Part shown: positions 32,278-47,179 of the stretch, in pieces
How positions within the stretch are numbered: position 1 is the stretch's first letter
Layout: the number at the start of each line of letters is the position of its first letter
Source: Aminobacter carboxidus
GTDB lineage: Bacteria > Pseudomonadota > Alphaproteobacteria > Rhizobiales > Rhizobiaceae
Length of the DNA: 64,000 nt
Assembly: GCF_014863355.1 (NCBI RefSeq)
Contig: NZ_JACZEP010000002.1
Coordinates: forward strand, 1 to 64,000
Direction of reading: 5' to 3'
Position numbers and translations under genes: made by a program
Notes under the pieces: generated by a model
The model's input: only the letters and a program-made list of their open reading frames with translations
What the model was told of the DNA's origin: nothing
Database searches by the model: none

Positions 32278-33069
32278 TCAGGCGCGTGGCGCAAGCGCGA
32301 AGGCGCGCACCGGGCTACCGGTGCCACCGACGATCTTGAGCGGGGCGACGACCAGCACGGCACCCGTCGCCGGCAGTTTGTCGAGGTTGCACAGGCTGGC
32401 AAGGCCGTAGCTGCCGACTTCGAGCAGCAGACTATGGGCGGGAAACGGCGGATCCATCGCCACCGCGCTGCCGGCATCGGTACCGACGCATTCGTTGCCG
32501 AACCCGAGAACACCGCGCTCGACCAGCAGGCGGATGCAATCGACGCTTGGTCCGGGCGTATGCGGGCCATTCTCGTCAGCGTTCAGGAAGGCCTCGGTCG
32601 AAGTGTTGCGCGGATACCAGTCCGAGCGCATCAGCACCCAGGCGCCCCTGGGGATCTGACCGTGCACGGCCTCCCAGGCTTTCACGCCATCGGCGGTGAG
32701 CAGGAAGTCCGGATTGGCGGCGACCTCCTTGGAGCAGTCGATAACGACGCAAGGTGCTACGAAGGACTGCGTCGACACGGTATCGGTCGTGCCCTGGGCG
32801 ACGTCCTTGCCGGAAATCCAGTGCACCGGGGCATCGAAATGCGTGCCGGTGTGCTCGCCCAGCTCCATCCAACCCCACGCCCACCACGGCCCGTTGGCGT
32901 CGTAGCGCGAAATCTCGTGCATCTTGAACTTCGGCGTGTTCTTGGCGAAATCCGGCGGCAGATACAAAACCGGAGTGTCCGGCCCAAGCGGCGCCGTCAG
33001 GTCGACGATCTGGACCGCGCCGGTGGCAATTGCTGAAGCGAAATCCGCCAGCGTCTGGTTGGCTGTCAT
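32278..33069 (-). CDS. cyclase-family metal-dependent hydrolase (KynB/isatin hydrolase-like)
   Basis: A 263-residue member of the family containing bacterial kynurenine formamidase and isatin hydrolase. The metal-binding motif GEHTGTHFDAPVHW (HxGTHxDxPxH) is intact, and GTDAGS plus a late histidine-containing PAHSLLL segment complete the site. A GAGGAGGAG ribosome site precedes the start. Family members open amide or lactam bonds with a manganese or zinc ion. Next to an indolepyruvate oxidoreductase and a MarR gene, an indole-derived substrate such as isatin or N-formylkynurenine is plausible but unproven. Confidence 0.85.
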   Translation of the reverse strand: MTANQTLADFASAIATGAVQIVDLTAPLGPDTPVLYLPPDFAKNTPKFKMHEISRYDANGPWWAWGWMELGEHTGTHFDAPVHWISGKDVAQGTTDTVSTQSFVAPCVVIDCSKEVAANPDFLLTADGVKAWEAVHGQIPRGAWVLMRSDWYPRNTSTEAFLNADENGPHTPGPSVDCIRLLVERGVLGFGNECVGTDAGSAVAMDPPFPAHSLLLEVGSYGLASLCNLDKLPATGAVLVVAPLKIVGGTGSPVRAFALAPRA

Positions 33070-33523: not shown

Positions 33524-33533
33524 TATGATCAAA
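33524..33533. promoter_or_regulatory. TATGATCAAA operator upstream of the Liv-type binding-protein operon
   Basis: TATGATCAAA followed by TGA differs by one base from the perfect palindrome TTTGATCAAA at 39632 and 45416. The extended GATCAAATGA also matches the minus-strand reading of the 45416 site. It lies 100 bases before the binding-protein start, and its TATGAT could itself be a -10 element. Confidence 0.6.
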
Positions 33534-33633: not shown

Positions 33634-34908
33634 ATGAACAAAACCAAGGGCCTGATGCTGGCCAGCCTGCTTGCAGCCACCGCATTTTCCACCACCTCGG
33701 CAATGGCCCAGGACGCCGCTTGCCCAGTCAAGATCGGCGGCGTGCTGTCGCTGACCGGCTCGATGGGTGCGGTGGGCAAGGCCATCGGCAACAGCGCACA
33801 GCTCGCCATCGCCAACATCAACGAAGGCGGCGGCATCAAGGGCTGCCAGGTCGAGTTCGTGCTGCGCGATGACCAGGGTCAGCCCAATGTCGGCGTCGAC
33901 GCGGCCAAGTATCTCGTCGATGTCGAGGGCGTGAAGGCACTGTCGGCGAGCATCGGCAGCGGCGTTACCATCCCGATCCTGACCTCGGTTTCAGCGCCGT
34001 CGCAGATCCCCCAGATCGCCTGTTGCTCGTCAGCCCCGGTGCTGACGACGATGGCGCAGGAAGGCAAGACCGGCGGGTTCTTCTTCCGCACCTTCCCGGT
34101 GGTCAAGAACCTCTCCTACCTGCCGGCCAAGATCGCGGCCGACCGCGGCCTCAAGCGCATCGCGATGATCTATGTGAACACCGACTACGGCGCGAGCCTG
34201 GTGAAGGATTTCACCAAGGCGACCGAGAAGTTCGGCGGCGAAGTGGTCAAGGCTGTCGCCTTCAACGAAAACCAGGCGTCGTATCGCGCCGAAGTTTCGG
34301 CGGCACTGGCCGAGAAGCCCGATGCGATGTTCATCGTCGCCTTCCCGCAGGACGGCGCCACCATCGCCCGCGAATGGATTTCGCTCGGCGGCACGCAGGA
34401 GCTGATCCTCAACAACGCGCTGCGCAGCCCCGATTTCGTCAAGGCCGTCGGCGCCAAGTACCTGACCAAGGCGTTCGGCACCGACAATACCTCGACCCAG
34501 AGCGCCACGCTCGACGAGTTCAAGGCAGCGTTCAAGTCGGCCTACAACATCAGTGCCGACGGCCCCGGCATTTCCAACGAATACGACGCAGTGACGATCC
34601 TCGGCCTTGCCATGAACATCGCGCCCGACCTGTCCGGCCCTTCGATCCGCGATGCGATCCGCAAGACCCAGACATCAGGCGGCGAGGTCATCGGCACCGG
34701 CCCGGCGGAGTTCAAGAAGGCACTGGAGCTGGTCAAGGCCGGCAAGCCGATCAAATATGTCGGCGCGCTCGGCCCGATCGAGTTCGACGTCAATGGTGAC
34801 ATCAGCGGCCCCGCGCTGACCTGGCACATCGAGGGCGAGGAACTGGTCATCGACAAGACCATCAGCGCCGAGGATATGGCAAAGCTGCTAGCGGAAATCG
34901 ACGGCTAA
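33634..34908 (+). CDS. ABC substrate-binding protein, branched-chain amino acid (Liv) type
   Basis: A 424-residue periplasmic protein. Residues 1-25 are a Sec signal peptide ending SAMAQ. The mature part opens CPVKIGGVLSLTGSMGAVGK, standard for type I periplasmic-binding folds (Peripla_BP_6). The start at 33634 follows AAGGGGAAC. It heads a plus-strand operon with enzyme genes but no permease. The permeases and ATPases that lack a binding protein lie at 40393-43760, so the two probably form one importer. The ligand is presumably an amino acid or amide processed by the downstream oxidoreductases. Confidence 0.93.
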   Translation: MNKTKGLMLASLLAATAFSTTSAMAQDAACPVKIGGVLSLTGSMGAVGKAIGNSAQLAIANINEGGGIKGCQVEFVLRDDQGQPNVGVDAAKYLVDVEGVKALSASIGSGVTIPILTSVSAPSQIPQIACCSSAPVLTTMAQEGKTGGFFFRTFPVVKNLSYLPAKIAADRGLKRIAMIYVNTDYGASLVKDFTKATEKFGGEVVKAVAFNENQASYRAEVSAALAEKPDAMFIVAFPQDGATIAREWISLGGTQELILNNALRSPDFVKAVGAKYLTKAFGTDNTSTQSATLDEFKAAFKSAYNISADGPGISNEYDAVTILGLAMNIAPDLSGPSIRDAIRKTQTSGGEVIGTGPAEFKKALELVKAGKPIKYVGALGPIEFDVNGDISGPALTWHIEGEELVIDKTISAEDMAKLLAEIDG

Positions 34909-34931
34909 GCAACAACGGGTACCGGACGGGC

Positions 34932-37229
34932 ATGACCAGCTACACCCTTTCCCATTGGGGCACCTACGAGGTCGAACCCCGTGGAAACGGTTTGCCCGCC
35001 CTCAAGCCGTTCAGGCGCGATCGGGACCCGAGCCCGATCGGCCTCTACCAGCTCGACCCGGCGCTCGACAGGCTCCGGGTCCGGCGACCGGCCATACGCA
35101 AGAGCTGGCTCGATCATGGTCCGGGAGCGGCTGCGGAACGGCGCGGCAGCGATCCCTTCGTCGAAGTCGAGTGGGACGTGGCGCTCGACCTCACTGCCGC
35201 CGAGATCGACCGGGTCCGCATCACCCACGGCAATGCGTCGATCTTCGGTGGCTCCTATGGCTGGTCCAGTGCCGGCCGCTTTCACCACGCGCAAAGCCAG
35301 GTCCACCGCTTCCTGAATGCCGCCGGCGGCTATGTCCGCCATGTCGATTCCTACAGCCTGGGCGCCGCCAACGTCGTGCTGCCGCATATCGTGGCGAGCA
35401 TGGACGATCTGATGGCCGGCCATTCCTCTTGGGACACGCTGGCCGCGCATTGCGAGCTGTTCGTCAGCTTCGGCGGCGTGCCGGTCAAGAACGCGCAGAT
35501 CAATGCCGGCGGCGTTGCCCTGCACGGCGTGCCGGCAGGCCTTGCCGGCATGCGCGCAGCCGGCACCCGCTTCGTCAATATCGGCCCGGTGCGCGACAAT
35601 TTCGGCGCGGTCGCCGATGCGGCGGAATGGATCGCCTGCCGCCCCAACGCCGACACCGCCCTGATGCTGGCGCTGGCCTGGGTGTTGTTCAGCGAGGGCC
35701 TGCACGACAAGGCCTTCCTTGACCGTTGCTGCACGGGTTTCGAGAACTTCGTCCCCTACCTCACCGGAGCCACCGACGGTGTGCCGAAGAAACCCGAATG
35801 GGCCGAAGCGATCAGCGGCGTGCCTGCCGGAACCATCGTCGATCTTGCCCGCCACATGGCATCGGCACGCACGATGCTCAATGTTTCGTGGTCGATGCAG
35901 CGCGCCAGCCATGGCGAACAACCCTACTGGATGGTGGTGACGCTGGCGGCAATGCTTGGCCAGATCGGGAAGCCTGGCGGCGGTTTCGGCGTCGGTTATG
36001 GCGCGGCAAATCTTGTCGGCAGCGCCCACACCCGTATCAAGGGGCCGACGCTGTCGCAGCTCAAGCCGGGCATTCCCGACTTCATTCCGGTCGCGCGCAT
36101 CGCCGACATGCTGCTCAATCCCGGCGCGCCCTTCACCTACAATGGCAAGACGCAGAATTACCCTGACATCCACCTGATCTACTGGGCCGGCGGCAACCCG
36201 TTCCACCATCACCAGGATCTCAACCGCCTGCTCACGGCCTGGCAGAAGCCCGACACCGTCATCGTCAACGAGCAGTACTGGACGCCGACGGCCAAGCGCG
36301 CCGACATTGTCTTGCCGGCGACAATCTCGCTCGAACGCGACGATATCGGTTCGGCCACGCTGGAGGCCTTCATCGTTGCCATGAAGCAAGCAGTGCCGCC
36401 GGCGGGAGAGGCGCGCGACGACTACGCCATCTTCGCCGAATTGGCCGAGCGACTCGGCTGCGGCGAAACCTTCTCGGAAGGGCTCGACGCGACGGGCTGG
36501 CTGTCGCGGCTCTACGAGGAATGCCGGCCGCACAATCGCGCGCGCGGGCTCGACCTGCCCAATTTCGAAACCTTTTGGCGCGATGGGCTGATCGACCTGA
36601 CCCCGCTCGACCGGCCGGTCACCATGCTTGCCGATTTCGTCGCCGATCCGGAGAGCAAACCGCTCGGTACACCGTCGGGCAAGATCGAGATCTTCTCGCA
36701 GCGTATCGCCGGCTTCGGCCTGGACGACTGCCCCGGCCATGCGACATGGATGGCACCGGTGGAGTGGCTGGGCGCCGGGCTTGCCACCAGATATCCGCTG
36801 CACCTTCTGACTGACCAGCCGGCGCGCCGGCTGCACAGCCAGCTCGACGCCAGTCCCCATAGTGCCGGCGGCAAGTCGAATGGCCGCGAGCTGGTCTACA
36901 TGAACCCGGCAGACGCCGCACAACGCAGGCTCGGGGAAGGCCAGATCGTCGAGCTGTTCAACGACCGCGGCCGCTGCCTGGCTGCGGTGACGATCACCAG
37001 CGACATCATGCCCGGCGTGGCGCGGCTCAACACCGGCGCCTGGTTCGATCCGGACCCGGAAACCGGGCTCGAAAAGCACGGCAACCCGAACGTGCTGACG
37101 CTCGACGTGCCGGCGTCCGGCCTGTCGCAAGGCTGCAGCGCCCAGACGTGCCTTGTCGAGATCGCCGCCTTTGCCGGCCCGCTTCCACCTGTCACCGCCT
37201 TTTGCCTGCCGGACTTCGCGACATCATGA
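34932..37229 (+). CDS. molybdopterin oxidoreductase, BisC/DMSO-reductase type
   Basis: A 765-residue molybdoenzyme resembling biotin sulfoxide reductase, TorA and DMSO reductase. Visible are GGSYGWSSAGRFHHAQSQ near 106-123 and the molybdenum-ligand region HVDSYSLGAANVVLPHIV, where S142 would bind molybdenum. Also present are IYWAGGNPFHHHQDLNRL and the C-terminal cofactor domain (LGEGQIVELFND). There is no twin-arginine signal and no N-terminal iron-sulfur motif, so it is cytoplasmic like BisC. The substrate is expected to be an S-oxide or N-oxide. It follows the binding protein by 23 bases and overlaps the next gene by four. Confidence 0.9.
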   Translation: MTSYTLSHWGTYEVEPRGNGLPALKPFRRDRDPSPIGLYQLDPALDRLRVRRPAIRKSWLDHGPGAAAERRGSDPFVEVEWDVALDLTAAEIDRVRITHGNASIFGGSYGWSSAGRFHHAQSQVHRFLNAAGGYVRHVDSYSLGAANVVLPHIVASMDDLMAGHSSWDTLAAHCELFVSFGGVPVKNAQINAGGVALHGVPAGLAGMRAAGTRFVNIGPVRDNFGAVADAAEWIACRPNADTALMLALAWVLFSEGLHDKAFLDRCCTGFENFVPYLTGATDGVPKKPEWAEAISGVPAGTIVDLARHMASARTMLNVSWSMQRASHGEQPYWMVVTLAAMLGQIGKPGGGFGVGYGAANLVGSAHTRIKGPTLSQLKPGIPDFIPVARIADMLLNPGAPFTYNGKTQNYPDIHLIYWAGGNPFHHHQDLNRLLTAWQKPDTVIVNEQYWTPTAKRADIVLPATISLERDDIGSATLEAFIVAMKQAVPPAGEARDDYAIFAELAERLGCGETFSEGLDATGWLSRLYEECRPHNRARGLDLPNFETFWRDGLIDLTPLDRPVTMLADFVADPESKPLGTPSGKIEIFSQRIAGFGLDDCPGHATWMAPVEWLGAGLATRYPLHLLTDQPARRLHSQLDASPHSAGGKSNGRELVYMNPADAAQRRLGEGQIVELFNDRGRCLAAVTITSDIMPGVARLNTGAWFDPDPETGLEKHGNPNVLTLDVPASGLSQGCSAQTCLVEIAAFAGPLPPVTAFCLPDFATS

Positions 37230-38530
37230 CCACCGCACAGAGCGCGCCGCACCAACACATGCGTACGGTGTGGTGGCAAACCGCCAATCCGGCCCCTGTT
37301 ACCCAGCCCTTGCGCGCTGCAAGCAAGGTCGACGTCGCGATCATCGGCGCCGGCTTCACCGGCCTGACCGCTGCACTCCACCTCGCTCGACGCGGCGCGC
37401 GTGTCGCCGTGCTCGAGGCAGAGACGATCGGCAGCGGCGCGAGCGGACTCAATGCAGGTTTCGTGGTGCCGAATTTCGCCAAGGCAGACCCTGCGGCGGT
37501 GGTTGGCAAGCTTGGCGAGGAACGCGGCTACAGACTGCTGCAGATGATCGGTGGCGGCGCCGATCGCGTCTACGCGACCATCCGCGAACATGGCATCGCT
37601 TGCGATGCCGAGCAGGTCGGCTGGATGCACGTCGCGCACTCGGAAAAGATGCTCGGCATCCTCGAACGCCGGGCGGAAGCCTGGCAGGCGCTGGGCCGTC
37701 CGGTGCGCATGCTCGACGCTACAGAGGCGCGCCGCCGCGCCAGCCTCAGGCATAACGCCGGAGCTCTCATCGATGACAGCGGCGGCACGCTGCATCCGCT
37801 CAACTACGCCTATGGATTGGCGAGTGCTGCCATCAAGGCCGGAACCTCGATCCACGAAAACGCACCTGTCCAGGCCGTGGAACGGTCGGACAATGGCTGG
37901 CGGCTGACCAGCGGACAAAGCACGATCGACGCCGATACGGTCCTGCTATGCACCAATGCCTCGGAACAGGGCGTTGCCCGCCGCCTCGGCCGCATCGTCG
38001 TGCCGCTGCGCGTCTACCAGATTGCCACCGCCCCGCTCGACGAGGTCACGGTGCGGCGCATTTCGCCGGAGCGGAACCCCGTCGCCGACACGCGTGCCAA
38101 TCTCTTCACCTTCAGGCTCGACCGCGACAACCGGCTGATCAGCGGCGGCATGTCGATGCTTCCGCTTGGCGCCGAGGCGCGCATGGCCGCGATGGTCGCC
38201 GGCCGCCTGCAGGCCGAGCTCGGCCTGCCGCGACTGCCTGCCGTCGAAAGCATCTGGCGCGGCACCGCCGCCATGACCACCGATTTCCTGCCACATGTCT
38301 ATGAGTTCGGCCCGCGCTTCATCGGCGGCATTGGCTGCAACGGCCGTGGTATCGCCTTGACCGCCATGCTCGGCGAGGTGCTGGCCGACGCTGCGTCGGG
38401 CACGCCGCTCGATGCATTGCCAATCCCGCAGACTTCGCCGCGGGCCCTGCCGTTTCGCAGTTTCGCCGCCGCTGCCCCGTCGGTCGCCATTGCCCAGGCC
38501 AGATGGCAGGACCGGCGCCAGGGATTGTAA
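37226..38530 (+). CDS. FAD-dependent amino-acid/amine oxidoreductase (DAO family)
   Basis: A 434-residue flavoprotein. The FAD-binding VAIIGAGFTGLTAALHLARRG begins near residue 37 (shown here as its conserved frame), followed by LEAETIGSGASGLNAGFV as in gamma-glutamylputrescine oxidase and D-amino acid dehydrogenase relatives. The C-terminal FIGGIGCNGRGIALT closes the flavin fold. The start is the ATG overlapping the preceding stop (ATGA), so translation is coupled. Expected chemistry: oxidation of a C-N bond to an imine, which fits the nearby RidA. Confidence 0.88.
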   Translation: MTTAQSAPHQHMRTVWWQTANPAPVTQPLRAASKVDVAIIGAGFTGLTAALHLARRGARVAVLEAETIGSGASGLNAGFVVPNFAKADPAAVVGKLGEERGYRLLQMIGGGADRVYATIREHGIACDAEQVGWMHVAHSEKMLGILERRAEAWQALGRPVRMLDATEARRRASLRHNAGALIDDSGGTLHPLNYAYGLASAAIKAGTSIHENAPVQAVERSDNGWRLTSGQSTIDADTVLLCTNASEQGVARRLGRIVVPLRVYQIATAPLDEVTVRRISPERNPVADTRANLFTFRLDRDNRLISGGMSMLPLGAEARMAAMVAGRLQAELGLPRLPAVESIWRGTAAMTTDFLPHVYEFGPRFIGGIGCNGRGIALTAMLGEVLADAASGTPLDALPIPQTSPRALPFRSFAAAAPSVAIAQARWQDRRQGL

Positions 38531-38581
38531 TCGCCTGATACGACGGCATATCTGTCTGGCCTCGCAAAGGAGCCGTTTTCG

Positions 38582-39547
38582 ATGCTGATCCTCAACCGGC
38601 AGGCCGTCGCTGCCGCCTTGCCCATGGCCGACTGCATCGACGCGATGCGTATCGCGCTGGCTGATTTCGCCACCGGCGGCTACCGGCTGTTCCCCCGCCA
38701 GCAGCTCAATGCCGGCCCCGGCGAGGTGCTGATGGGGCTGATGCCGACATTCTCGCTGGCCGGCGGCGAGAAGCTCTGGTGCCTGAAAGATGTGCTGGTC
38801 GCTCATGACAATGCGGCGCGCGGCCTCGACAACCACCAGGGCGCGGTACTGCTCAATGATGGCGAGACCGGCCAACTGCGCGCCGTGCTCGACGCCACCG
38901 AAATCACCGCCCGCCGCACCGCCGCGACCTCGGCTGTGGCAACGGCGGCGCTGGCCCGGCCCAACGCCAGGACGGTCGCCATCCTCGGCACCGGAACGCA
39001 GGCCGAGACGCATATCGAAGCGCTGCGCCATGTCATCCCTGAGGCTGCCTTCGTGCTTTGGGGGCGCTCGCCCGACAAGCTCGAGGAGCTTGCCCGCAAA
39101 AGCGGCGGCGAGGTGGCCGACAGCGCGCGGGGGGCAGTGGCCGACGCCGACGTCATCTGCACCCTGACCGGATCGAAGGAGCCGATCATCGAGCTTGGCT
39201 GGCTGAAGCCAGGCTGCCACATCAATGCCGTCGGCTCGAGCAATCGCAATGCGCGCGAGCTTGGCGACGACATCGTCGCCGCCTCGGCCTTCTTTGTCGA
39301 TTCGCGCAGCCAGGCCGCCATCGAGTGCGGCGAGCTGCTGCAGCCGCTCGAACGCGGCGTGATCGGTCCCGACCATGCCCGTGCCGAGCTCGGCGAGGTG
39401 CTCGCCGGACTGCGTCCCGGGCGCTCGTCGCCTCAGGAACTCACCGTGTTCAAGTCGCTCGGCATTGCCGTGGAGGATGCAGCGGCGGCCATCCGCGCCG
39501 TGAGCAACGCCACCGACAGGGGCCTCGGCCAACGGGTCGACTGGTAG
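38582..39547 (+). CDS. ornithine cyclodeaminase / mu-crystallin family protein
   Basis: A 321-residue NAD(P)-binding protein. The Rossmann segment VAILGTGTQAETHIEAL and the DVICTLTGSKEPII region are diagnostic. Family members act as ornithine cyclodeaminase, alanine dehydrogenase or ketimine reductase; a ketimine or imine reductase role would follow naturally from an upstream amine oxidase. A strong AAAGGAG site precedes the start. It lies 51 bases after the flavoprotein gene in the same operon. Confidence 0.87.
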   Translation: MLILNRQAVAAALPMADCIDAMRIALADFATGGYRLFPRQQLNAGPGEVLMGLMPTFSLAGGEKLWCLKDVLVAHDNAARGLDNHQGAVLLNDGETGQLRAVLDATEITARRTAATSAVATAALARPNARTVAILGTGTQAETHIEALRHVIPEAAFVLWGRSPDKLEELARKSGGEVADSARGAVADADVICTLTGSKEPIIELGWLKPGCHINAVGSSNRNARELGDDIVAASAFFVDSRSQAAIECGELLQPLERGVIGPDHARAELGEVLAGLRPGRSSPQELTVFKSLGIAVEDAAAAIRAVSNATDRGLGQRVDW

Positions 39548-39586
39548 AGCCTTCGCAGGCAAACAGTTCACGCGCGTCGTGCCGGC

Positions 39587-39641
39587 TTGATACCGCGCGG
39601 CGCGATTTCTATGCTATGTGCACATTCATCGTTTGATCAAA
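39587..39641 (+). promoter_or_regulatory. promoter and TTTGATCAAA operator of the GntR gene
   Basis: TTGATA (39587-39592) and TATGCT (39610-39615) are 17 bases apart, a good sigma-70 promoter. The perfect 10-base palindrome TTTGATCAAA (39632-39641) lies just downstream of the expected transcription start and immediately before the AGAGGAAG ribosome site. This is repressor geometry and suggests autoregulation. Confidence 0.68.
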
Positions 39642-39653
39642 AGAGGAAGCTGG

Positions 39654-40352
39654 ATGAGCGTCGATTTCCTGGAGCCTGTTTCGTCGCGCTCGACGATTCA
39701 GGACGGTATCTACCGGCAGCTGCGAAAGGCGCTGATGTCGGGGCATTTCGATCCCGGCCAGACACTGACCATCGCGATGCTGTCCGACACGTTCAAGACC
39801 AGCCACATGCCGGTTCGCGAGGCGCTGCGTCGCCTGATCGCAGAGAACGCGCTGGTCGTGCTGACCACCGGCTCGGCGCAGGTTCCCACCGTAAGCCTCG
39901 CGGCACTGGACGATCTGTGCCTGACGCGCATAGCGCTGGAAACGCTTGCGGCCAAGCTCGCCACCGAACGCTCGACGCCGGCCGACCGCAAGACCTTCCG
40001 GCATCTCGTCGAGGAGCATGAGGCCGCCGCCAACGACCGGAATCTCGAAGAGATGCTGGCCCGGAACCAGGAGCTGCATTTCGCGATCTACGACTGCTGC
40101 GGCTCGCCTGTCATCACCCAGTTCATCCAGAGCCTGTGGCTGCGCTTCGGCCCCTATATGCGCATGTTGTCCGGCCATATCGAACCGGTACTGGTCTCCG
40201 GCAAGTACCAGCCGAGCTCGCATCATCGCGACCTGATCGAGGCTATGGATGCGGGCGACGCCCGTGCCGCCGCCAAGGCGATCAAGGGCGACATCGAGAC
40301 GACGCAAGCGCTGCTGCGCCGGCTGTGCAAGGAAGCCGTCGAGACAAGCTGA
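39654..40352 (+). CDS. GntR-family regulator with FCD domain
   Basis: A 232-residue FadR-type regulator. The winged helix spans about 12-80 (DGIYRQLRKALMSGHFDPGQ; HMPVREALRRLIAENALVV) and is followed by a helical FCD effector domain (FAIYDCCGSPVITQFIQSLW). The start follows AGAGGAAG. Located at the junction of the two converging operons of the Liv-type system. The palindrome TTTGATCAAA at its own promoter recurs at the promoters of both operons, so it is the likely repressor of the whole unit. Confidence 0.9.
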   Translation: MSVDFLEPVSSRSTIQDGIYRQLRKALMSGHFDPGQTLTIAMLSDTFKTSHMPVREALRRLIAENALVVLTTGSAQVPTVSLAALDDLCLTRIALETLAAKLATERSTPADRKTFRHLVEEHEAAANDRNLEEMLARNQELHFAIYDCCGSPVITQFIQSLWLRFGPYMRMLSGHIEPVLVSGKYQPSSHHRDLIEAMDAGDARAAAKAIKGDIETTQALLRRLCKEAVETS

Positions 40353-40354
40353 CC

Positions 40355-40381
40355 GGCCGGCGCAAGAGCGCCGGCCCTTTT
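40355..40381 (+). terminator. rho-independent terminator after the GntR gene
   Basis: GGCCGGCGC (40355-40363) pairs perfectly with GCGCCGGCC (40368-40376) over an AAGA loop, then CTTTT. It separates the convergent GntR and permease genes. Confidence 0.9.
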
Positions 40382-40392
40382 AGCCGATGGGC

Positions 40393-41337
40393 TCAGGCTG
40401 CGTGCCGCGAGGTGACCGGCTGCTCGCCGATCAGGCCACGCGGGCGCAGCAACAGCACGAGCACCAGCGCCAGGCCGATGATCATCGCCTGAGCAGCACC
40501 GCCATAGATCTGGAACTGTTCGGGCAACATCTTCGACGACGCCGCGCCGATGGCGCTCCAGATGCCCCAGACAACGATCGCGCCGAGGATGGCGCCGCGG
40601 TTGTTGCCGCTGCCGCCGATGATCAACATCGTCCATATCTGGAAGGTCAGGATCGGCAGGAAGTCGAACGGGCTGACGAAGCCGATGAAGCTGGCATAAA
40701 GCGCACCGGCAAGCCCCATCAGCGTCGAGCCGATGACGAATGCCTGCAGGCGGAAGCTGCGGGTGTTCTTGCCCAGCGTCTCGGCGGCGACCTCGTCTTC
40801 GCGGATCGCCTTGAGCACGCGTCCCCACGGCGAACGCGCGATGCGCTCGAGGGCGACATAGGCGACGGCCAGGATCACCACCACGACTGCCAGGTAGCCG
40901 AGATTGTTGGCGAGCGGCGTCGCAAACAGCCCACGGAACGGATTGGGGATCGAGGCAATGCCCATCGTGCCGCCGGTCAAGGCTTCGAAGTTGGTGGCGA
41001 CGAGCTGGATGGTGACGGCGATGCCGAAGGTGGCGACCGCGAGATAGTCGCCACGCAACCGGACCGTCGCCATCCCGGTGATAAGTGCCGCCAGAGCTGC
41101 GGCAGCCATCGCGCCAACCAGGCCGACGATCCAGGGCAGTTCGAAATTGCCCACCAGTTCCGGCCGCGGAGGCGCCGTCAGGATCGCGAAGGTGTAGGCG
41201 CCGATAGCATAGAAGCCGACGATTCCGGCGTTGAACAGGCCGGTGCCGCCCCATTGCAGGTTGAGCCCCAGGGTCGCGATGCCGAGGATCAGCGCGACGG
41301 TGAGGAAGAATACGAGATACGAAACAAATCCGATCAT
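40393..41337 (-). CDS. branched-chain amino acid type ABC permease, LivM-like
   Basis: A 314-residue inner-membrane permease with about eight to ten hydrophobic segments, LGIATLGLNLQWGGTGLFNAG near the N-terminus and the RIARSPWGRVLKAIREDEVAAETLGK cytoplasmic loop (here abbreviated to its known pattern) diagnostic of LivM. The start at 41337 follows GTGAGGCTC; an open frame extends upstream into the LivH gene but is not coding. Last gene of the minus-strand operon that begins with RidA. Confidence 0.92.
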   Translation of the reverse strand: MIGFVSYLVFFLTVALILGIATLGLNLQWGGTGLFNAGIVGFYAIGAYTFAILTAPPRPELVGNFELPWIVGLVGAMAAAALAALITGMATVRLRGDYLAVATFGIAVTIQLVATNFEALTGGTMGIASIPNPFRGLFATPLANNLGYLAVVVVILAVAYVALERIARSPWGRVLKAIREDEVAAETLGKNTRSFRLQAFVIGSTLMGLAGALYASFIGFVSPFDFLPILTFQIWTMLIIGGSGNNRGAILGAIVVWGIWSAIGAASSKMLPEQFQIYGGAAQAMIIGLALVLVLLLRPRGLIGEQPVTSRHAA

Positions 41338-41344
41338 CTGAGCC

Positions 41345-42247
41345 TCACACGCGTGCCGACCTGGAGAACAGACCCTGAGGCCTGAGGTAGAGGATGATGA
41401 GCAGCAGGCCGAAGGGCACCGCCGCCTTGTAGCCGGTAGGTATGACCAGCGCCGACAGGCTTTCGGCAAGGCCGACGATCAGGCCGCCGGCGACCGCACC
41501 AAACAGGCTGCCGGTGCCACCGAGGATCGCCGCTGTGAACAGTGCAAGAAGCATGTTGAAGCCCATCTCCGGGCGGATCTGCACGGTCAATCCGGCAAAC
41601 ACGCCGGCAATGGCGGCAAGGGCGCCACTGAGCATCCAGGTCCAGCGCACCACCTTGGCGATGTCGATGCCGCAGACCTGCGACAGAGCCGGGTTCTCGG
41701 CCATCGAGCGCATGGCGACGCCAATGCGGCTGAACTTGAGGAACAGGTGCAACGCCACGACCAACGCCACCGTCAGCACGAGGACGAGCACCTGGTCGGG
41801 CATCAGCCTGACATTGGGCAGGATTTCGAGCGAGATCTGCAGCTCTTGGCCATAGTAGTGGGCGTCCGCGCCCCAGACGAAGAGCACCAGATTGCGCAGG
41901 ATCAGCGCGATACCGAAGCTGGCGAAAACCAGCGTCAGGCTGTTGGCGCGACGCTTCCTGAGCTTGGAGAACACCAGCGCGTCGGCAGCAACGGCGATCA
42001 GCCCGGTACCGACGCAGGAGACGGCGATTGCCACGAGCAGCGGCCAGCCGAAGGAGAACGGGCCGATGGGCTGGCCTGCGGGCAGGAATGCCACGACGGC
42101 AAGCGCGAGATAGGCGCCCCAGGTCAGCATTTCGGCGTGAGCGAAATTGGCAAATTTCAGCATGTGCGCGCACAGCGAATAGCCGATTGCCCCGAGCGCG
42201 AGGATGCCGCCGGTCAAGAGACCGTCGGCGATGGCTTGTCCGATCAT
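41345..42247 (-). CDS. branched-chain amino acid type ABC permease, LivH-like
   Basis: A 300-residue permease with GGILALGAIGYSLCAHMLKFANFAH at the N-terminus (the LivH pattern) and GVAMRSMAENPALSQVCGID in the coupling loop. It overlaps the LivF-type ATPase by four bases. With the LivM-like protein it forms the channel of an importer whose binding protein is encoded at 33634-34908. Confidence 0.92.
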   Translation of the reverse strand: MIGQAIADGLLTGGILALGAIGYSLCAHMLKFANFAHAEMLTWGAYLALAVVAFLPAGQPIGPFSFGWPLLVAIAVSCVGTGLIAVAADALVFSKLRKRRANSLTLVFASFGIALILRNLVLFVWGADAHYYGQELQISLEILPNVRLMPDQVLVLVLTVALVVALHLFLKFSRIGVAMRSMAENPALSQVCGIDIAKVVRWTWMLSGALAAIAGVFAGLTVQIRPEMGFNMLLALFTAAILGGTGSLFGAVAGGLIVGLAESLSALVIPTGYKAAVPFGLLLIILYLRPQGLFSRSARV

Positions 42248-42972
42248 GATTTCCTCCGGAAGCCCAGGAATGCTTCGGCAATGGCGTCGTTATCGAGCAG
42301 GTCGGCCGCCGTTCCAGTCATGTGGTTGCGGCCTTCGACCAGGACATAGGCACGATCGGAAACCCGAAGCGCCGCCTTGGCGTTCTGCTCCACCATCAGC
42401 ACCGCAACCCCGCTCTTGGCGAGGCGGCGCAAATCATCGAGCACCTCGTGCACGATCTTGGGTGCCAGGCCCGCCGTCGGCTCGTCGAGCATGATGACGC
42501 GCGGATCGGTCATAAGCGCGCGTGCCACCGCAAGCATCTGGCGCTGGCCGCCCGACAGCACGTTGGCTGCGGCGCGACGACGGTCGGCCAGAGCGGGAAA
42601 ATGCTCGAAGGCCCGTTGCACACGCTCGCGCAACAGCGAACGCGGCAAGGTGTGGCCGCCGCTGATCAGGTTGTCCTCGATCGAAAGCGAGGAAAAGACG
42701 TTGCTGGTCTGCGGTACGAAACCGACGCCGGCGGCGATGATCTCATGCGTCGGCAACCCCGAGATGCGCTGACCGCCAAGTTTGACCTCGCCGCCCTCGA
42801 CCAGCACCAGGCCGGCGAGCGCCTTGAGGAAGGTCGATTTGCCGGCACCGTTCGGGCCGATCAGGGTGACAAGTTCGCCGGCATCGATGGTGACCGAAAT
42901 GTCAAAGACGATCGGCATGCCGGGGATGTAGCTGGCACGCAGGTTGCGTGCTTCGCAGACGGGCGCGCTCAT
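42244..42972 (-). CDS. ABC importer ATPase, LivF-like
   Basis: A 242-residue ATPase with Walker A GPNGAGKST, signature LSGGQRQMLAVARAL, Walker B VIMLDEPTAGL and the LivF-type GFVPQTSNVFSSLSIEDNL segment. Coupled by four-base overlaps to both neighbours in the operon. Confidence 0.93.
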   Translation of the reverse strand: MSAPVCEARNLRASYIPGMPIVFDISVTIDAGELVTLIGPNGAGKSTFLKALAGLVLVEGGEVKLGGQRISGLPTHEIIAAGVGFVPQTSNVFSSLSIEDNLISGGHTLPRSLLRERVQRAFEHFPALADRRRAAANVLSGGQRQMLAVARALMTDPRVIMLDEPTAGLAPKIVHEVLDDLRRLAKSGVAVLMVEQNAKAALRVSDRAYVLVEGRNHMTGTAADLLDNDAIAEAFLGFRRKS

Positions 42973-43760
42973 GCCAGTTCTCCCACCGTCACGTCACCAA
43001 GATAGGCATCGACGACGCGCTGCTCTTTCATCACGCCGGCCGGATCGCCCTCGAAAATCACCCGTCCTTGCGCCATTACCACGATGTGGCGGCAGATGCG
43101 CATCACCATGTCCATGTTGTGCTCGACGATGAGGAAGGCGACGCCGCGCTCGTTGAGCGCCACGATCTTGTCGATCAGCGTCTCGATGAGCGTCGGGTTG
43201 ACGCCTGCCGTCGGCTCGTCGAGCAGGATGAGCGGCGGATCGACCATCATGACGCGGGCAAGTTCGAGCAGCTTCTGCTGGCCGCCCGAAAGCACGCCGG
43301 CGAGGTCGCGCGCCTTGTCGGCGAGACCGGTGAAGGCGAGCACCTCCATCGCGCGTTCGCGGGCCTGACGCTCTTCGCTGGCGACCAGCTTGCTGCGGAA
43401 CCAGTTGTTCCAGAAGGTCTCGCCCGATTGGCCGGTGGCCGACAGCATGACGTTTTCCAGCACCGACATTTCAGGAAACGGCCGCGGGATCTGGAAGGTA
43501 CGCGCCAGGCCGGCGCGGAAGATCCTGTCGGGCCTGAGGCCCGAAATGGGCTTGCCGTCGAAGATGACATCGCCGGCGCTCGGCTGGACTTCGCCGGCAA
43601 TGAGGCCGAATAGCGTGCTCTTGCCGGCGCCGTTAGGGCCGATCAGGCCGGTGATCTGGCCCGCCTTGACCGCCATGTCGACGCCGTCCACCGCCTTGAG
43701 CGCGCCAAAGCTCCTGGACAGTCCCCGGGTCTGCAGGATGACATCGCCGGTCTGTGTCAT
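42969..43760 (-). CDS. ABC importer ATPase, LivG-like
   Basis: A 263-residue ATPase with Walker A GPNGAGKST, signature LSGGQQKLLELARVM and Walker B LILLDEPTAGVNP. ARTFQIPRPFPEMSVLENV is typical of LivG. It overlaps the upstream aminotransferase by four bases, tying transport to metabolism in one transcript. Confidence 0.93.
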   Translation of the reverse strand: MTQTGDVILQTRGLSRSFGALKAVDGVDMAVKAGQITGLIGPNGAGKSTLFGLIAGEVQPSAGDVIFDGKPISGLRPDRIFRAGLARTFQIPRPFPEMSVLENVMLSATGQSGETFWNNWFRSKLVASEERQARERAMEVLAFTGLADKARDLAGVLSGGQQKLLELARVMMVDPPLILLDEPTAGVNPTLIETLIDKIVALNERGVAFLIVEHNMDMVMRICRHIVVMAQGRVIFEGDPAGVMKEQRVVDAYLGDVTVGELA

Positions 43761-44977
43761 GCACTGCCCCGCTTTGCTTCGCTGGCCGCCGCGCCGTCGC
43801 GGCCGTCCCAGAGATTGTTGAAGAACCTGGACAACCGGTTCATGCCTTCGTCCAGTCGCTCCAGGCTCTCGGAACCGAAGCAGACGCGAAGGTGGCCCTC
43901 GCCCGATTGACCGTAGAAGCTGCCGGCCTCGACGACCACATCTGCCTCGTCGAGGATCCTTTCGGCAAGCGCCTGAGACGGAATGCCGAAGGCCGAGATG
44001 TCAGGGAATGCGTAGATCGCGCCTTGCGGCGACGGGCATTTCACGCCCGGCATCTGGTTCAGGCGGCGGACGACAAGATCGCGCTTCTGGCGGTCGTGGT
44101 CGACAAGCTCGGCGAGCACTTCGGAAGGACCGGTGATCGCAGCACGCCCCCCGGCCTGGATGAATGTATTGACGTGGGTGGCGTCGTTGGCGGTGATCTT
44201 GAGCAGCCCTGGCATCGCCCAGGCAGGTGCTGTCATGTAGCCGAGACGCCATCCATCCATGGCGAAGGATTTGGTGAACGCAAAGGCGGTAACGGTGCGC
44301 TCGGCCATGCCGGGCAGTGCACCAATGCTGATATGCTCGCGGCCGTCATAGACCATGTCTTCGTAGACCTCGTCGGAAATGACGAGCAGGTCGCGCCTGA
44401 TCGCCAGTTCGGCAAGGCCTTCGAGCTCGGCGCGGGAATAGACTCGGCCGGTCGGATTGACCGGATTGACCAGCACGATCATCCGGGTGCGCTCAGTGAT
44501 GGCGGCCTCGATCAGCTCCGGCCTGAGCGCGAAGTCGTCGGCGGCATCCAGCGTCACGAATACCGGCCTGGCGCCGGCCAGTTCGATCTTGCCGATATGC
44601 TGGGGGTAGAACGGGTCGAGCAGGATCGCCTCGTCGCCCGGATCGAGCAGGGCAAGGAATGCCGCGAACGAGGCATGCGTCAGGCCATTGGTGACCAGGA
44701 TGTCGGCCGCGCTCACGTGCATGCCGTTCTGCTGCTGCAGCTTCTCGGCCAGCGCCGCCCGGAAGCTAGCGGTGCCCTTGAGGTCGCTGTAATGGACGTC
44801 GCCGGCAAGCAGCGCCGCGATCGTTGCCTGCTTGATGTGTTCGGGCGTATCGGCGGCGGGACGGCCAAGCTCGAGATGGATCAGGTCACGCCCGCTGCCG
44901 GCCAGCGCCGCAGCCTTCTGGTACATGCCGAATGATTTCTGTGGCGTCCCGGAGATACGCCGCGCGACCCGCCTCAT
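43757..44977 (-). CDS. PLP-dependent aminotransferase class I/II
   Basis: A 406-residue fold-type I aminotransferase (aspartate aminotransferase superfamily). HYSDLKGTASFRAALAEKL, NPVNPTGRVYSRAEL and ISDEVYEDMVYDG are standard, and the PLP lysine is in AFTKSFAMDGWRLGY. The substrate cannot be fixed from sequence, but being co-transcribed with an amino-acid importer and RidA it should act on the imported amino acid or a derivative. Starts with a four-base overlap with RidA. Confidence 0.9.
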   Translation of the reverse strand: MRRVARRISGTPQKSFGMYQKAAALAGSGRDLIHLELGRPAADTPEHIKQATIAALLAGDVHYSDLKGTASFRAALAEKLQQQNGMHVSAADILVTNGLTHASFAAFLALLDPGDEAILLDPFYPQHIGKIELAGARPVFVTLDAADDFALRPELIEAAITERTRMIVLVNPVNPTGRVYSRAELEGLAELAIRRDLLVISDEVYEDMVYDGREHISIGALPGMAERTVTAFAFTKSFAMDGWRLGYMTAPAWAMPGLLKITANDATHVNTFIQAGGRAAITGPSEVLAELVDHDRQKRDLVVRRLNQMPGVKCPSPQGAIYAFPDISAFGIPSQALAERILDEADVVVEAGSFYGQSGEGHLRVCFGSESLERLDEGMNRLSRFFNNLWDGRDGAAASEAKRGSA

Positions 44978-45390
44978 TGTCCCACCTTGGTTGCATCTGC
45001 CGCGGTGTCGGCCTGACGCCGCGCGATGACCTCGAGCTCGACCTTGATCTCTTCGACGGCGAAACCGACGATGACGGTCGTGTTGGTCGGGCGCGGATCG
45101 GAGAAGGTCTGGCCGAGCAGGCGCGACACGGCAATGACGTCGTCACGGCTGGCGAGATTGACGCGCACCGACACGATGTCGCGCATGCTGGAACCGGCCT
45201 CGGCCAGAGCGGCGGCGATGATGTCCAGCGACCGGCGCGTCTGCACTGCCGCGTCAGGGTCAAAGCCACCGATTTCGGGATCGTATCCCGCCGTACCCGA
45301 GACGAAAATCCAGTCGCCATCGATCACGGCTCGTGAATAGCCAGCCAGCTCCTCGAAGGGGGAGCCTGAATAGATCGCTTTTCTGGTCAT
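44974..45390 (-). CDS. RidA-family enamine/imine deaminase
   Basis: A 138-residue YjgF/YER057c/UK114-family protein (FEELAGYSRAVIDGDWIFVSGT; DIVSVRVNLASRDD; TTVIVGFAVEEIKVELEVIA). RidA proteins hydrolyse reactive enamine/imine intermediates, such as 2-aminoacrylate, released by PLP or flavin enzymes. A trailing cysteine-linked beta-strand arginine of classical RidA is not clearly placed, so it may be a specialised subgroup. First gene of the operon through 40393. A TTTGATCAAA palindrome lies 26 bases upstream. Confidence 0.9.
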   Translation of the reverse strand: MTRKAIYSGSPFEELAGYSRAVIDGDWIFVSGTAGYDPEIGGFDPDAAVQTRRSLDIIAAALAEAGSSMRDIVSVRVNLASRDDVIAVSRLLGQTFSDPRPTNTTVIVGFAVEEIKVELEVIARRQADTAADATKVGQ

Positions 45391-45415
45391 TGGTCGCCTC
45401 TGCCTTGTACGCTCA

Positions 45416-45462
45416 TTTGATCAAACCATCATCGTGATAACGTAAGTTCGCGGCGAGATCAA
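45416..45462 (-). promoter_or_regulatory. promoter and TTTGATCAAA operator of the RidA-Liv operon
   Basis: On the minus strand TTGATC (45462-45457) and TATCAC (45439-45434) are 17 bases apart. The palindrome TTTGATCAAA (45416-45425) overlaps the expected start of transcription. The extended GATCAAATGA matches the site at 33527. The remaining roughly 260 bases up to msrA at 45725 show no gene. Confidence 0.65.
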
Positions 45463-45724
45463 CCGCCTCGAAATGGCGTCGGTATTTTGGATTGCGGGCC
45501 GTAGGGTCAGCGGGAAACGGTTGGCATCGGGCGCAGGGGCTACTTGGATCGCGCGTCGGGCATGAACCGCAGCCGCAGTCACTTGCGCGTGACCCACGCC
45601 GATTCCGCGTAACAAAGCCACGTTCATCTCCGTATCCTGTGCTGGCGGACATCGGCTGGCTTGGCCGGGTGAGCCCAGGCGCCTCACAAGAACGCCGCCA
45701 GGATCGACGAACTGGAGCAGTTGG

Positions 45725-46459
45725 ATGACACGCGAATTTTCGGAAGTGAGAAAGATTGCCAGCGGGCCGGCATTCTGGCTGTTAGCCGCGGCAGCCGCAT
45801 TCGGCACCTGGGCTCTGACGACACCGAGTGCCGCGCAGGAGGGCATCAAGATTCCGGCGCCAATGCTCGACGCACCGGCGCAAGGCAACTCGGCGGTGGC
45901 GGTGCTGGCAGGCGGCTGCTTCTGGGGCGTGCAGGGCGTGTTCCAGCATGTCGAGGGCGTCACGAACGCCGTGTCAGGCTATGCCGGCGGCGACAAGCAG
46001 ACGGCCAAATACAACGTCGTCGGCAGTGGCTCGACCGGTCATGCAGAGTCGGTCAGGATCACCTTCGATCCGCAGAAAATCAGCTATGGCCGGATTCTGC
46101 AGATCTACTTCTCGGTCGCGCATGACCCGACCGAGCTCAACCGCCAGGGGCCCGACACCGGCACCCAGTACCGCTCGACGATCTTCCCGGCCGACGCCGA
46201 GCAGGCCAAGGTCGCCAAGGCCTATGTCGCCCAACTCGACAAGGCCAAGGTCTTTGACGCGACGATCGCGACGACGATCGAACCCGGCCACGCCTTCTAC
46301 AAGGCCGAAGACTATCATCAGGATTTTCTGACCCTGAACCCGACCTATCCCTACATCGTCTACAACGACCTGCCGAAGATCGAGAACCTGAAACGCCTCT
46401 TCCCCGATCGCTACCGCAGCGACCCGGTGCTGGTCTCGGAGGCCAAGGCGTCCAACTGA
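45725..46459 (+). CDS. msrA: exported peptide methionine-S-sulfoxide reductase
   Basis: A 244-residue MsrA. The catalytic GGCFWGVQGVFQHVEGV motif contains the nucleophilic cysteine, and GPDTGTQYRSTIF and AEDYHQDFL complete the fold. Unlike cytosolic MsrA it starts with a roughly 38-residue hydrophobic leader (FWLLAAAAAFGTWALTTPSAAQ), predicting export to the periplasm. No resolving-cysteine tail is evident after the core, so recycling may need a periplasmic reductant. A GGAG site precedes the start. Its position beside the BisC/RidA system suggests a link to methionine sulfoxide. Confidence 0.93.
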   Translation: MTREFSEVRKIASGPAFWLLAAAAAFGTWALTTPSAAQEGIKIPAPMLDAPAQGNSAVAVLAGGCFWGVQGVFQHVEGVTNAVSGYAGGDKQTAKYNVVGSGSTGHAESVRITFDPQKISYGRILQIYFSVAHDPTELNRQGPDTGTQYRSTIFPADAEQAKVAKAYVAQLDKAKVFDATIATTIEPGHAFYKAEDYHQDFLTLNPTYPYIVYNDLPKIENLKRLFPDRYRSDPVLVSEAKASN

Positions 46460-46477: not shown

Positions 46478-47179
46478 TCAGCTGGCTGACGGCCACCAGT
46501 CACCGTCATCTCCGAGTCTCAGGCGCGGCGAGACAATCGCGCCGTGGATGCGTGAAACGAGTGGTGCATCGTGTTCGCCGATGGCCTGGCGCCAGTTGTC
46601 ACCCTGCAGCATGGCGAAGACCGCCGCGACCGGTTCGATGCCGGCCTTTTCAAGCAGCTTCAGCACTGCCAACATGGAGGTGCCGGAACTGATGACATCG
46701 TCGACGACCAGTACCCGCTTGCCCTCGAGCAGTGGCAGCATGCGCGGGTCTAGATAGAGCCGCTTGGCGTGGTCCGGGCTGGTGATCGAGCTCATCGGCT
46801 CCGACAGATCCTCGCTGTACCAGAACTTTCGCGACGTCCCGAGCGCCACCATTCTTGAATGCCCGAGACGCCGGGCGACGCCATTGGCAAGCGGCAGGCC
46901 GAGTGTCGGCACGCCGATCACCACCTCGGGATCATAGGCTCGGGCATGCACGGCCATGGCATCCGACAGCGCATCTTCCACGGTGAAGCTCGCCTGGTTG
47001 ACGATCATCGAGGCAACTGCGCTCGTGCCATCGCCCGGCAGGATGCGGATCGGCAGTGCGATCTGGCGACCGTCGGGAAGCGACGCTGGGTAGAGGTCGC
47101 TGAAGCCATCGGCGGGCTGCGTTTCGAACGTGCCCTCGGGATAGACTGTCTGCCAGAATTGATGCGGAGCGAGTGGCAC
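46478..47179 (-). CDS. phosphoribosyltransferase-like protein
   Basis: A protein of about 233 residues with the PRPP-binding motif RVLVVDDVISSGTSML typical of type I phosphoribosyltransferases (adenine, xanthine and orotate types). VVIGVPTLGLPLANGVARRLG lies before it. No ATG with a ribosome site is available near the conserved start; a GTG at 47179 preceded by AAAGGT is chosen, and an ATG at 47236 is the alternative. It is divergent from an M20 amidohydrolase gene. Likely nucleobase salvage; the base is unknown. Confidence 0.78.
   Translation of the reverse strand: MPLAPHQFWQTVYPEGTFETQPADGFSDLYPASLPDGRQIALPIRILPGDGTSAVASMIVNQASFTVEDALSDAMAVHARAYDPEVVIGVPTLGLPLANGVARRLGHSRMVALGTSRKFWYSEDLSEPMSSITSPDHAKRLYLDPRMLPLLEGKRVLVVDDVISSGTSMLAVLKLLEKAGIEPVAAVFAMLQGDNWRQAIGEHDAPLVSRIHGAIVSPRLRLGDDGDWWPSAS

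Follow-up and report, generated by a model that had tools for sequence, protein, structure and literature searches.

A conserved gene cluster with a BisC-like molybdoenzyme in Aminobacter carboxidus, a candidate system for uptake and catabolism of an oxidised amino-acid-like compound

Gene content and operator sites of the locus

We examined a 64-kb stretch of an Aminobacter carboxidus contig (hereafter the window), for which a reading of the sequence had proposed import and catabolism of an S- or N-oxidised amino acid. Open frames for a Liv-type importer, a BisC-like molybdoenzyme, an amine oxidase (DAO), an ornithine cyclodeaminase (OCD)-family protein, a GntR regulator, a PLP enzyme and RidA are grouped at 33634-45390. 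Every gene named in the original prediction is present as an open frame where it had been placed, and those that were scanned match the expected families; LivM, LivF and LivG are identified by frame and synteny only.

The cluster contains two operons that face one another. The plus-strand operon (33634-39547) begins with the gene for a Liv-type periplasmic binding protein (SBP, 33634-34908; Pfam Peripla_BP_6 and an AlphaFold model), followed by that for the predicted BisC-like molybdenum S-/N-oxide reductase (34932-37229), assigned from a below-cut-off match to TIGR00509, active-site residues and a tree. The latter frame overlaps by 4 bases that of the DAO (37226-38530), an FAD amine oxidase of glycine/sarcosine oxidase fold according to family profiles and a structure match. 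The operon ends with OCD (38582-39547), whose product is placed by profiles and nearest structures in the ornithine cyclodeaminase/mu-crystallin family and is ketimine/pyrroline-2-carboxylate reductase-like. The minus-strand operon runs from 45390 to 40393 with four 4-base overlaps. It encodes a RidA family imine/enamine hydrolase (44974-45390; profile matches), a fold-type-I PLP enzyme of the class I/II aminotransferase family (43757-44977), LivG-type (42969-43760) and LivF-type (42244-42972) ATPases, and LivH-type (41345-42247; profile match) and LivM-type (40393-41337; start set by eye, place kept in relatives) permeases. Between the operons lies gntR (39654-40352, plus strand), encoding a GntR/FCD family regulator (Pfam GntR and FCD); from the sequence, we corrected its start to the ATG at 39654 in place of an upstream GTG at 39618. 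No electron donor for the molybdenum enzyme was recognised within the cluster.

On the SBP side, the cluster is adjoined by a linked plus-strand module for a 2-oxoacid:ferredoxin oxidoreductase (27790-31493; IorA at 27790-29943, IorB from about 29940), in which IorA scores 267.3 bits against the IOR_alpha model, short of its 650.9 cut-off. In some relatives, too, IorAB accompanies the PLP enzyme; no operator site precedes it in the window. The minus-strand genes at 31512-33069 encode a MarR-like regulator (31512-32132), resembling a protein annotated as MarR in locus L116, and a putative cyclase (32278-33069; Pfam PF04199).

A palindrome, TTTGATCAAA, occurs ahead of both operons and of gntR. 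A copy with one mismatch lies at 33524-33533, about 110 bases before the SBP gene, and exact copies lie at 39632-39641, directly before the gntR start region, and at 45416-45425, about 26 bases before ridA. These are the only matches with at most one mismatch in the 64 kb, and they bear out the original prediction that the genes are coordinately marked. A related 12-base pattern gave six strand-matches in the window, a number that none of 100 shuffles reached (mean 0.57). The whole genome holds four exact TTTGATCAAA sites, two of them in the cluster, compared with one for a control pattern; no window gene was matched by tblastn at the two sites outside. At locus L158, an open frame that by eye resembles a Liv-type binding protein stops about 300 bases before the site. 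We suggest that GntR binds TTTGATCAAA and probably represses all three promoters until substrate or product binds.

Conservation of the cluster and a wider PLP enzyme regulon

The cluster recurs in Aminobacter, in Rhizobium sp. RU36D, where gntR is missing, and in Gemmobacter. Gene order is identical in L035, L037 (without gntR), L038, L129 and L243, and in L130 up to LivH, where that stretch stops; this shared order indicates that the grouping is not due to chance. A short Rhodospirillales metagenome-assembled contig (L036) carries three of the genes, SBP-BisC-DAO. The neighbourhood comparison proposed with the original prediction thus finds a unit kept across at least three genera, MsrA excepted. 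The sites are kept as well: TTTGATCAAA-type sites stand at corresponding places in L035 (three), L129 (three), L037 (two), L038 (three, each with one mismatch) and L130 (two, its stretch stopping before the third), and the site upstream of SBP is common to these five loci. None was found in L036, whose stretch reaches less than 200 bases ahead of the SBP gene. DAO-importer loci that lack the PLP enzyme (L118, L119, L159, L160 and L162) have no site, or one-mismatch sites only (L118 and L119), none of them seen ahead of a cluster gene.

The exported MsrA that had been noted next door is present in the window (45725-46459, beyond a gap of 0.3 kb) and has an N-terminal signal-like stretch, but it does not travel with the cluster. 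It was seen beside it only in the close relatives L035 and L243, was not found in the corresponding flanks of L037, L038 and L129, which cover 1.8 to 4 kb, and at 45% identity or more was found in none of the 30 regulon loci described below.

The PLP enzyme, GntR and the operator are part of a wider regulon. The PLP enzyme was found in 36 of 394 genomes of the same family. The genome of the window, G002, G009 and G324 were viewed separately and a fragment (G946) was left out, giving 31 fetched regions; without L243, a near-copy from the same genus with the full cluster, 30 loci were tabulated, as stretches of 20 kb in 27 cases and of 19, 14 and 10 kb in the others. Exact TTTGATCAAA sites occur in 22 of the 30, with 27 copies in all compared with a mean of 0.33 in three shuffles. 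A site with at most one mismatch lies within 260 bases ahead of the PLP gene in 14/30, and four loci have no such site anywhere in the stretch. GntR is encoded in 27 loci, RidA in 13 and DAO in 13. BisC and OCD occur in none of the 30 stretches, so the oxide-reduction step appears confined to the variant seen in the window. Within that variant BisC is co-inherited as the second gene of the import operon, downstream of an operator site, and its proteins fall into a single clade. In the literature searched, mostly without subscription papers, we found no description of the cluster, the operator or the wider GntR regulon.

Enzyme families of the cluster

The Mo-ligand Ser142 (by alignment) and the lack of an export signal among the first residues (by eye), both predicted for the BisC-like enzyme, were seen. 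It scores 947.9 bits against bisC_fam (TIGR00509), under the NCBIfam cut-off of 1017.55. Its GGSYGW motif holds a Tyr and a Trp equivalent to Tyr114 and Trp116 of combined S-/N-oxide reductases, the pair by which these are recognised in the available text of PMC5122715. With Tyr, Trp and the Ser ligand, its residues are those of a combined reductase of Dor/Bis/Mts type, and we predict this activity from the sequence. Since the active-site Tyr is present, a strict N-oxide reductase of the TorA type was ruled out; E. coli TorA lacks this Tyr in the alignment.

The enzyme shares about 41% identity with E. coli BisC and TorZ. A tree built by a quick method compared 107 distinct rows, made up of the window enzyme, four E. 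coli references and loci matching at 44% identity or more across more than 80% of the query; weaker matches were excluded, and identical proteins were entered once (L035 = L008). In this tree, 103 other rows form a branch of their own (98), separate from the group of EC_BisC, EC_TorZ and EC_TorA (89), with MtsZ and DorA not in the tree, and the eight distinct BisC proteins from the cluster form one clade (100% SH-aLRT). The enzyme therefore does not sit on the E. coli BisC branch, and the substrate of BisC cannot be transferred to it. BisC relatives outside the cluster have varied neighbours that point to no common substrate, the commonest direct ones being a periplasmic binding protein (in six cases), a threonine-aldolase-like protein (five) and an SDR (four), of which the first two were identified by eye.

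The other proteins are similarly distant from named families. For the DAO, the nearest named NCBIfam model is pipecolate_AmaA (270.5 bits, cut-off of 600 not reached). Its structural model suggests the glycine/sarcosine oxidase fold; L-proline dehydrogenase is among the 50 matches listed, but these span the fold at large and are not decisive for substrate. OCD scores 224.1 bits against the Delta1-pyrroline-2-carboxylate/ketimine reductase equivalog (cut-off of 322 not reached), and its nearest solved structures are pyrroline-2-carboxylate reductase and mu-crystallin/thiomorpholine-carboxylate dehydrogenase. In the alignments shown, its SSNRNAREL stands beside SRPDWREL of mu-crystallin, the partner being mu-crystallin and not ornithine cyclodeaminase, whose catalytic Asp we take to be Asp228 of the P. 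putida enzyme. The best NCBIfam model for the PLP enzyme is the GntC cyclodehydratase (299.3 bits, cut-off of 415 not reached). Since BisC, DAO, OCD and the PLP enzyme all miss their cut-offs, their reactions are read from distant relatives. The AlphaFold model of the SBP (pLDDT 82.8) resembles LivK/LivJ-type binding proteins; the 50 fold matches listed include Liv-type proteins with varied ligands and are likewise not decisive.

Candidate pathway and substrates

A co-regulated cluster with the Tyr and Trp pair is most simply read as serving uptake, reduction and C-N oxidation of an oxidised amino-acid-like compound, as the original prediction had it, methionine sulfoxide in particular aside. 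We lean towards an inducible uptake and catabolic cluster in which the molybdenum enzyme removes the oxygen from the S- or N-oxide of an imported amino-acid-like compound, and amine oxidation and PLP/RidA chemistry follow. In the scheme we infer, including its substrate class, order of steps and direction of the OCD reaction, the SBP and LivFGHM would import an amino-acid-like compound with an S-oxide or, as the less likely alternative, an N-oxygen, and the BisC-like enzyme would reduce it in the cytoplasm. The reduced product, most likely a secondary amine or imino acid, would then have a C-N bond oxidised by the DAO, RidA would hydrolyse the reactive imine or enamine, and the OCD-family protein would interconvert ketimine and amine. 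The PLP enzyme may transaminate, or eliminate from, the resulting amino acid, and IorAB next door may take over the 2-oxo acid.

Hints as to the substrate conflict. Free methionine sulfoxide is reduced by E. coli and Salmonella BisC and by H. influenzae MtsZ, which share the Mo-enzyme family, the Tyr and Trp pair and the Ser ligand with the cluster enzyme, and BisC, too, lacks an electron donor encoded in its operon (available text of PMC7759655 and PMC5122715). The cluster enzyme differs in being built into an importer/catabolic operon. A pathway for methionine sulfoxide or an S-alkylcysteine sulfoxide would agree with the S-oxide signature, with the methionine-aminotransferase models that match the PLP enzyme well under cut-off (215.2/420 and 176.3/481 bits), with a possible C-S lyase pair of PLP enzyme and RidA, and with cysteine-desulfurase-like genes in 6/30 regulon loci. 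However, the cluster enzyme lies off the E. coli BisC/TorZ branch, MsrA is not conserved with the cluster, and a PatB-type C-S lyase model scores 166 bits on the PLP enzyme compared with up to 299 for aminotransferase models. Regulon loci also carry kynureninase-like, indolepyruvate-oxidoreductase (IorAB) and, in two loci, proline-peptidase-like genes. We know of no step for OCD or DAO in methionine breakdown. Methionine sulfoxide is thus a possible but poorly supported substrate, and we consider this pathway, with its S-alkylcysteine variant, distinctly unlikely.

The Pseudomonas D-lysine/L-pipecolate route uses an aminotransferase, piperideine-2-carboxylate reductase and the AmaA oxidase. 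Three similar enzyme families meet in the window cluster, but its proteins score under the equivalog cut-offs, no semialdehyde dehydrogenase was recognised in the window cluster, and the Pseudomonas route has no oxide reductase. The DAO being closest to AmaA and OCD to cyclic-imine reductases, the nutrient might be an N-oxide or an imino acid oxygenated on nitrogen (N-hydroxypipecolate, for example), from which the molybdenum enzyme would remove the N-oxygen before a pipecolate-oxidase-like DAO opened the ring. Loci L125 and L126, where Xaa-Pro-dipeptidase-like and DPPIV-like enzymes accompany the PLP enzyme, DAO and operator, hint at imino acids, and combined reductases also accept N-oxides (available text of PMC5122715). 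We nevertheless judge it very unlikely: close relatives of these peptidases occur in 0/30 family loci, the aldehyde dehydrogenase required after pipecolate oxidation was not recognised in the cluster, and a literature search on N-hydroxypipecolate and bacterial degradation found nothing relevant. Another proposal, still unlikely, takes the nutrient to be a cyclic imino acid that carries oxygen, either N-hydroxypipecolate or an S-oxide of chondrine or cycloalliin type, whose ring the molybdenum enzyme would deoxygenate and the pipecolate-oxidase-like DAO open, ketimine reductase and RidA handling imines and the PLP enzyme finishing. The literature searched held no assimilatory pathway for such a compound; if it were true, a BisC-family enzyme would serve nutrient acquisition and not repair or respiration.

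The nutrient could instead be unoxidised, with the BisC-like enzyme only repairing substrate, product or cofactor oxidised in the cell. The absence of BisC-like genes from the 30 fetched regulon stretches and the varied neighbours of related genes elsewhere would fit, but its co-inheritance in the import operon of this variant leads us to think repair rather unlikely. Canavanine or N-hydroxyguanidine catabolism, by a PLP gamma-lyase and N-O reduction, is suggested by GntC, a gamma-eliminating cyclase, and by the canavanine degradation operon of Rhizobium leguminosarum (available text of PMC10018355), in which a PLP enzyme, canavanine gamma-lyase, likewise stands in a rhizobial amino-acid catabolic cluster. 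The window cluster, however, has other enzymes and no CtdA. The sole B3_4 match in the genome falls within an open frame of 825 aa, the size of PheT, some 75 kb beyond the window; a standalone editing protein of CtdA type was thus not seen. No Rfam family reached its gathering score in the window, so no guanidine riboswitch was detected there. Canavanine was rejected as substrate on these two grounds, and with DAO and OCD left unexplained the whole proposal is extremely improbable.

The GntR-controlled PLP loci of the same bacterial family are also close to the cluster and have in common with it a related PLP enzyme, GntR, TTTGATCAAA and, in part, RidA, DAO and a Liv importer; they differ in that BisC and OCD occur in 0/30 stretches, and several have TRAP or polar-amino-acid importers instead, plus a kynureninase-like enzyme. 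The operator offers a handle on this wider regulon, and the substrate question is directly testable, since separate screens of the SBP, the reductase and the regulator are possible. A molybdenum S-/N-oxide reductase in a dedicated import and catabolic operon of at least three genera would extend the role of these enzymes to nutrition, beyond repair and respiration.

Gene layout and conservation of the cluster

The window is part of contig C12 of a 6.29-Mb genome, and frame and family-model scans bore out that the predicted genes exist as open frames of the expected families. The cluster comprises two converging operons. The rightward one encodes a Liv-type periplasmic binding protein (SBP, 33634-34908), a BisC-like molybdoenzyme (34932-37229), an FAD amine oxidase (DAO, 37226-38530) and an ornithine cyclodeaminase/mu-crystallin family protein (OCD, 38582-39547); the leftward one encodes RidA (44974-45390), a PLP enzyme (43757-44977), LivG, LivF, LivH and LivM (down to 40393). 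Between them lies a GntR/FCD regulator gene (39654-40352, forward strand), with its ATG start codon at 39654.

On an Aminobacter anthyllidis contig (L035), 17 queried window genes keep their order at 80-99% protein identity, which suggests a host in Aminobacter or closely related to it. Cluster order is also kept in Gemmobacter caeni (L038), in a congener (genome G009, stretch L129) and, except that gntR is missing, in Rhizobium sp. RU36D (L037); a Rhodospirillales MAG contig (L036) carries SBP-BisC-DAO and then ends. Because BisC at no less than 83% identity occurs in only 5 of 10 genus genomes searched, our own included, the cluster is accessory. The proposed association with an adjoining MsrA gene (45725-46459) holds in two Aminobacter relatives, L035 and the same-genus near-copy L243, but MsrA was not found in the L037, L038 and L129 stretches, which extend 1.8 to 4 kb in that direction. 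Past the cluster, at 46478-51763, are phosphoribosyltransferase-like, M20 amidohydrolase, nucleoside-hydrolase-like and adenine-deaminase-like genes, partly named by eye, which look like a separate purine/amide region.

A shared operator and the wider PLP-enzyme regulon

The palindrome TTTGATCAAA occurs exactly at 39632 and 45416 and with one mismatch at 33524, the only matches with at most one mismatch in the 64-kb window. These sites stand directly before gntR, about 26 bases before ridA and before the SBP gene, respectively, in agreement with the coordinate marking originally noted for the cluster genes. Genome-wide there are four exact sites, two of them in the cluster, against one for a control pattern. 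Corresponding places carry three sites each in L035, L129 and L038 (those of L038 with one mismatch each), two in L130, a relative's stretch that ends before the third, and two in L037; none was found in L036, where fewer than 200 bases precede the SBP gene. We infer that GntR binds these sites and represses from them. Elsewhere in the same genome, on contig C31 (L158:4017-5631), an ORF resembling, by eye, a Liv-type binding protein is followed some 300 bases later by an exact site.

Searched at E up to 1e-100, the PLP enzyme was found in 4 of 397 order, 2 of 385 class and 36 of 394 family genomes sampled, our own being counted in each sample. We fetched 31 family regions and excluded one near-copy, leaving 30 loci. 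Of these, 26 carry the operator when one mismatch is allowed, 22 have an exact copy, and in 14 a site lies no more than 260 bases upstream of the PLP gene; the loci hold 27 exact sites, compared with a mean of 0.33 in three mononucleotide shuffles. GntR accompanies 27 loci, RidA 13, DAO 13 and SBP 12, and other importer parts recur (polar-amino-acid binding protein 8, TRAP binding protein 5), as do a kynureninase-like class-V enzyme (13), cysteine-desulfurase-like proteins (6), aldo/keto reductase (6), alpha/beta hydrolase (2), IorA (3), IorB (4), cyclase (5) and MarR (3). At the identity thresholds applied, BisC, OCD and MsrA were each found in 0/30 fetched stretches, as was each control gene from the window (phosphoribosyltransferase, M20, nucleoside-hydrolase, adenine-deaminase-like). 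The class-V enzyme (L227:7301-8431 and 12 further loci) matches kynureninase, SufS and EgtE weakly (55, 53 and 52 bits), and in L227 an operator lies about 17 bases before its gene.

In the order sample, two loci (L125 and L126) combine PLP enzyme, DAO, operator and a dipeptide-type importer with an S9 peptidase bearing a DPPIV N-terminal domain and an amidohydrolase closest to Xaa-Pro dipeptidase (261.8 and 256.8 bits, cut-off 500). RidA and GntR are present in L126, and neither was seen in the L125 stretch. Related loci that pair DAO with an importer but lack the PLP enzyme (L118, L119, L159, L160, L162) show no operator before these genes. From this comparison, the PLP enzyme and regulator look like a shared core to which varied uptake and preparatory steps are attached, here BisC and OCD. 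In L159 and L160, homologues of SBP, LivFGHM, DAO and RidA adjoin genes resembling, by eye, the 2-aminobenzoyl-CoA pathway.

Adjoining the cluster, window 27790-33069 encodes IorAB, a MarR-like protein and a putative cyclase, none of which was found in the L037, L038 and L129 stretches. All or some of them turn up again near the PLP enzyme in relatives (L214, L215, L233, L242 and the Sulfitobacter plasmid stretches L116 and L117), and they may therefore handle the oxo acid. In L233, iorA and the PLP gene diverge with an operator between them; on the two Sulfitobacter plasmids, some 10 to 16 kb separate the PLP gene from IorA, the MarR-like gene and the cyclase.

Affinities of the cluster enzymes

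The molybdoenzyme shares about 41% identity with E. coli BisC, TorZ and TorA; its bisC_fam score, 947.9 bits, is under the 1017.55 cut-off. In a 107-row tree built by a quick method (SH-aLRT only; DmsA as long outgroup; MtsZ and DorA absent from the rows), eight distinct cluster enzymes form one clade (support 100) within a 103-row branch (98). E. coli BisC, TorZ and TorA fall outside, grouped together at 89, and the E. coli BisC substrate, from which methionine sulfoxide had been proposed, is thus not transferable. The enzyme retains GGSYGW and the serine ligand; the Tyr is missing in TorA in the alignment. According to an extract of one report, true N-oxide reductases lack this Tyr and combined S-/N-oxide reductases carry both residues (PMC5122715), so an S-oxide substrate is possible, perhaps likelier. 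In L043, L046, L048, L049 and L066, mostly Reyranella-type genomes, a threonine-aldolase-like gene (named by eye) directly adjoins a related BisC-like gene.

The closest named model for DAO is the L-pipecolate oxidase AmaA (270.5, cut-off 600), and sequence search returned no solved relative at E 1e-15. Among the 50 matches listed for its AlphaFold model (pLDDT 86.9), none exceeding 24% identity, are structures of glycine/sarcosine oxidase, L-proline dehydrogenase and N-methyltryptophan oxidase. OCD scores under the equivalog cut-off; its closest solved proteins, pyrroline-2-carboxylate reductase and mu-crystallin/thiomorpholine-carboxylate dehydrogenase, favour a putative imine reductase rather than a cyclodeaminase. 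The PLP enzyme, of the class I/II aminotransferase family, scores highest on GntC (299.3, cut-off 415) and archaeal aspartate aminotransferase (279.3, cut-off 550), and lower on methionine-aminotransferase models (215.2 of 420, 176.3 of 481) and the PatB C-S lyase (166.2 of 340); among solved proteins, its top three matches are aspartate and aromatic aminotransferases. The SBP model (pLDDT 82.8) has the Liv-type fold, which gives no ligand prediction.

Candidate substrates and route

Imino acids are hinted at as a possible substrate class by the likeness of DAO to AmaA and proline dehydrogenase, that of OCD to cyclic-imine reductases, and the proline-peptidase-like genes of two relatives. However, the scores lie under curated cut-offs, and none of the 30 family loci showed the Xaa-Pro-dipeptidase-like protein or the S9 protein of L125. 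Different hints come from neighbouring genes: aromatic amino acids would fit the kynureninase-like, cyclase and IorAB neighbours, and sulfur amino acids would fit the cysteine-desulfurase-like ones. As the hints conflict, no one substrate is singled out.

The best-supported route, its step order and substrate being inferred, would begin with import, after which the molybdoenzyme would deoxygenate the imported compound and DAO would carry out C-N oxidation; RidA and OCD would deal with the imines, and PLP chemistry would follow, the oxo acid possibly passing to IorAB. The literature searched yielded no published description of the cluster or the operator. A regulated catabolic gene cluster is of a known kind; an S-/N-oxide reductase embedded in one appears to be a new combination.
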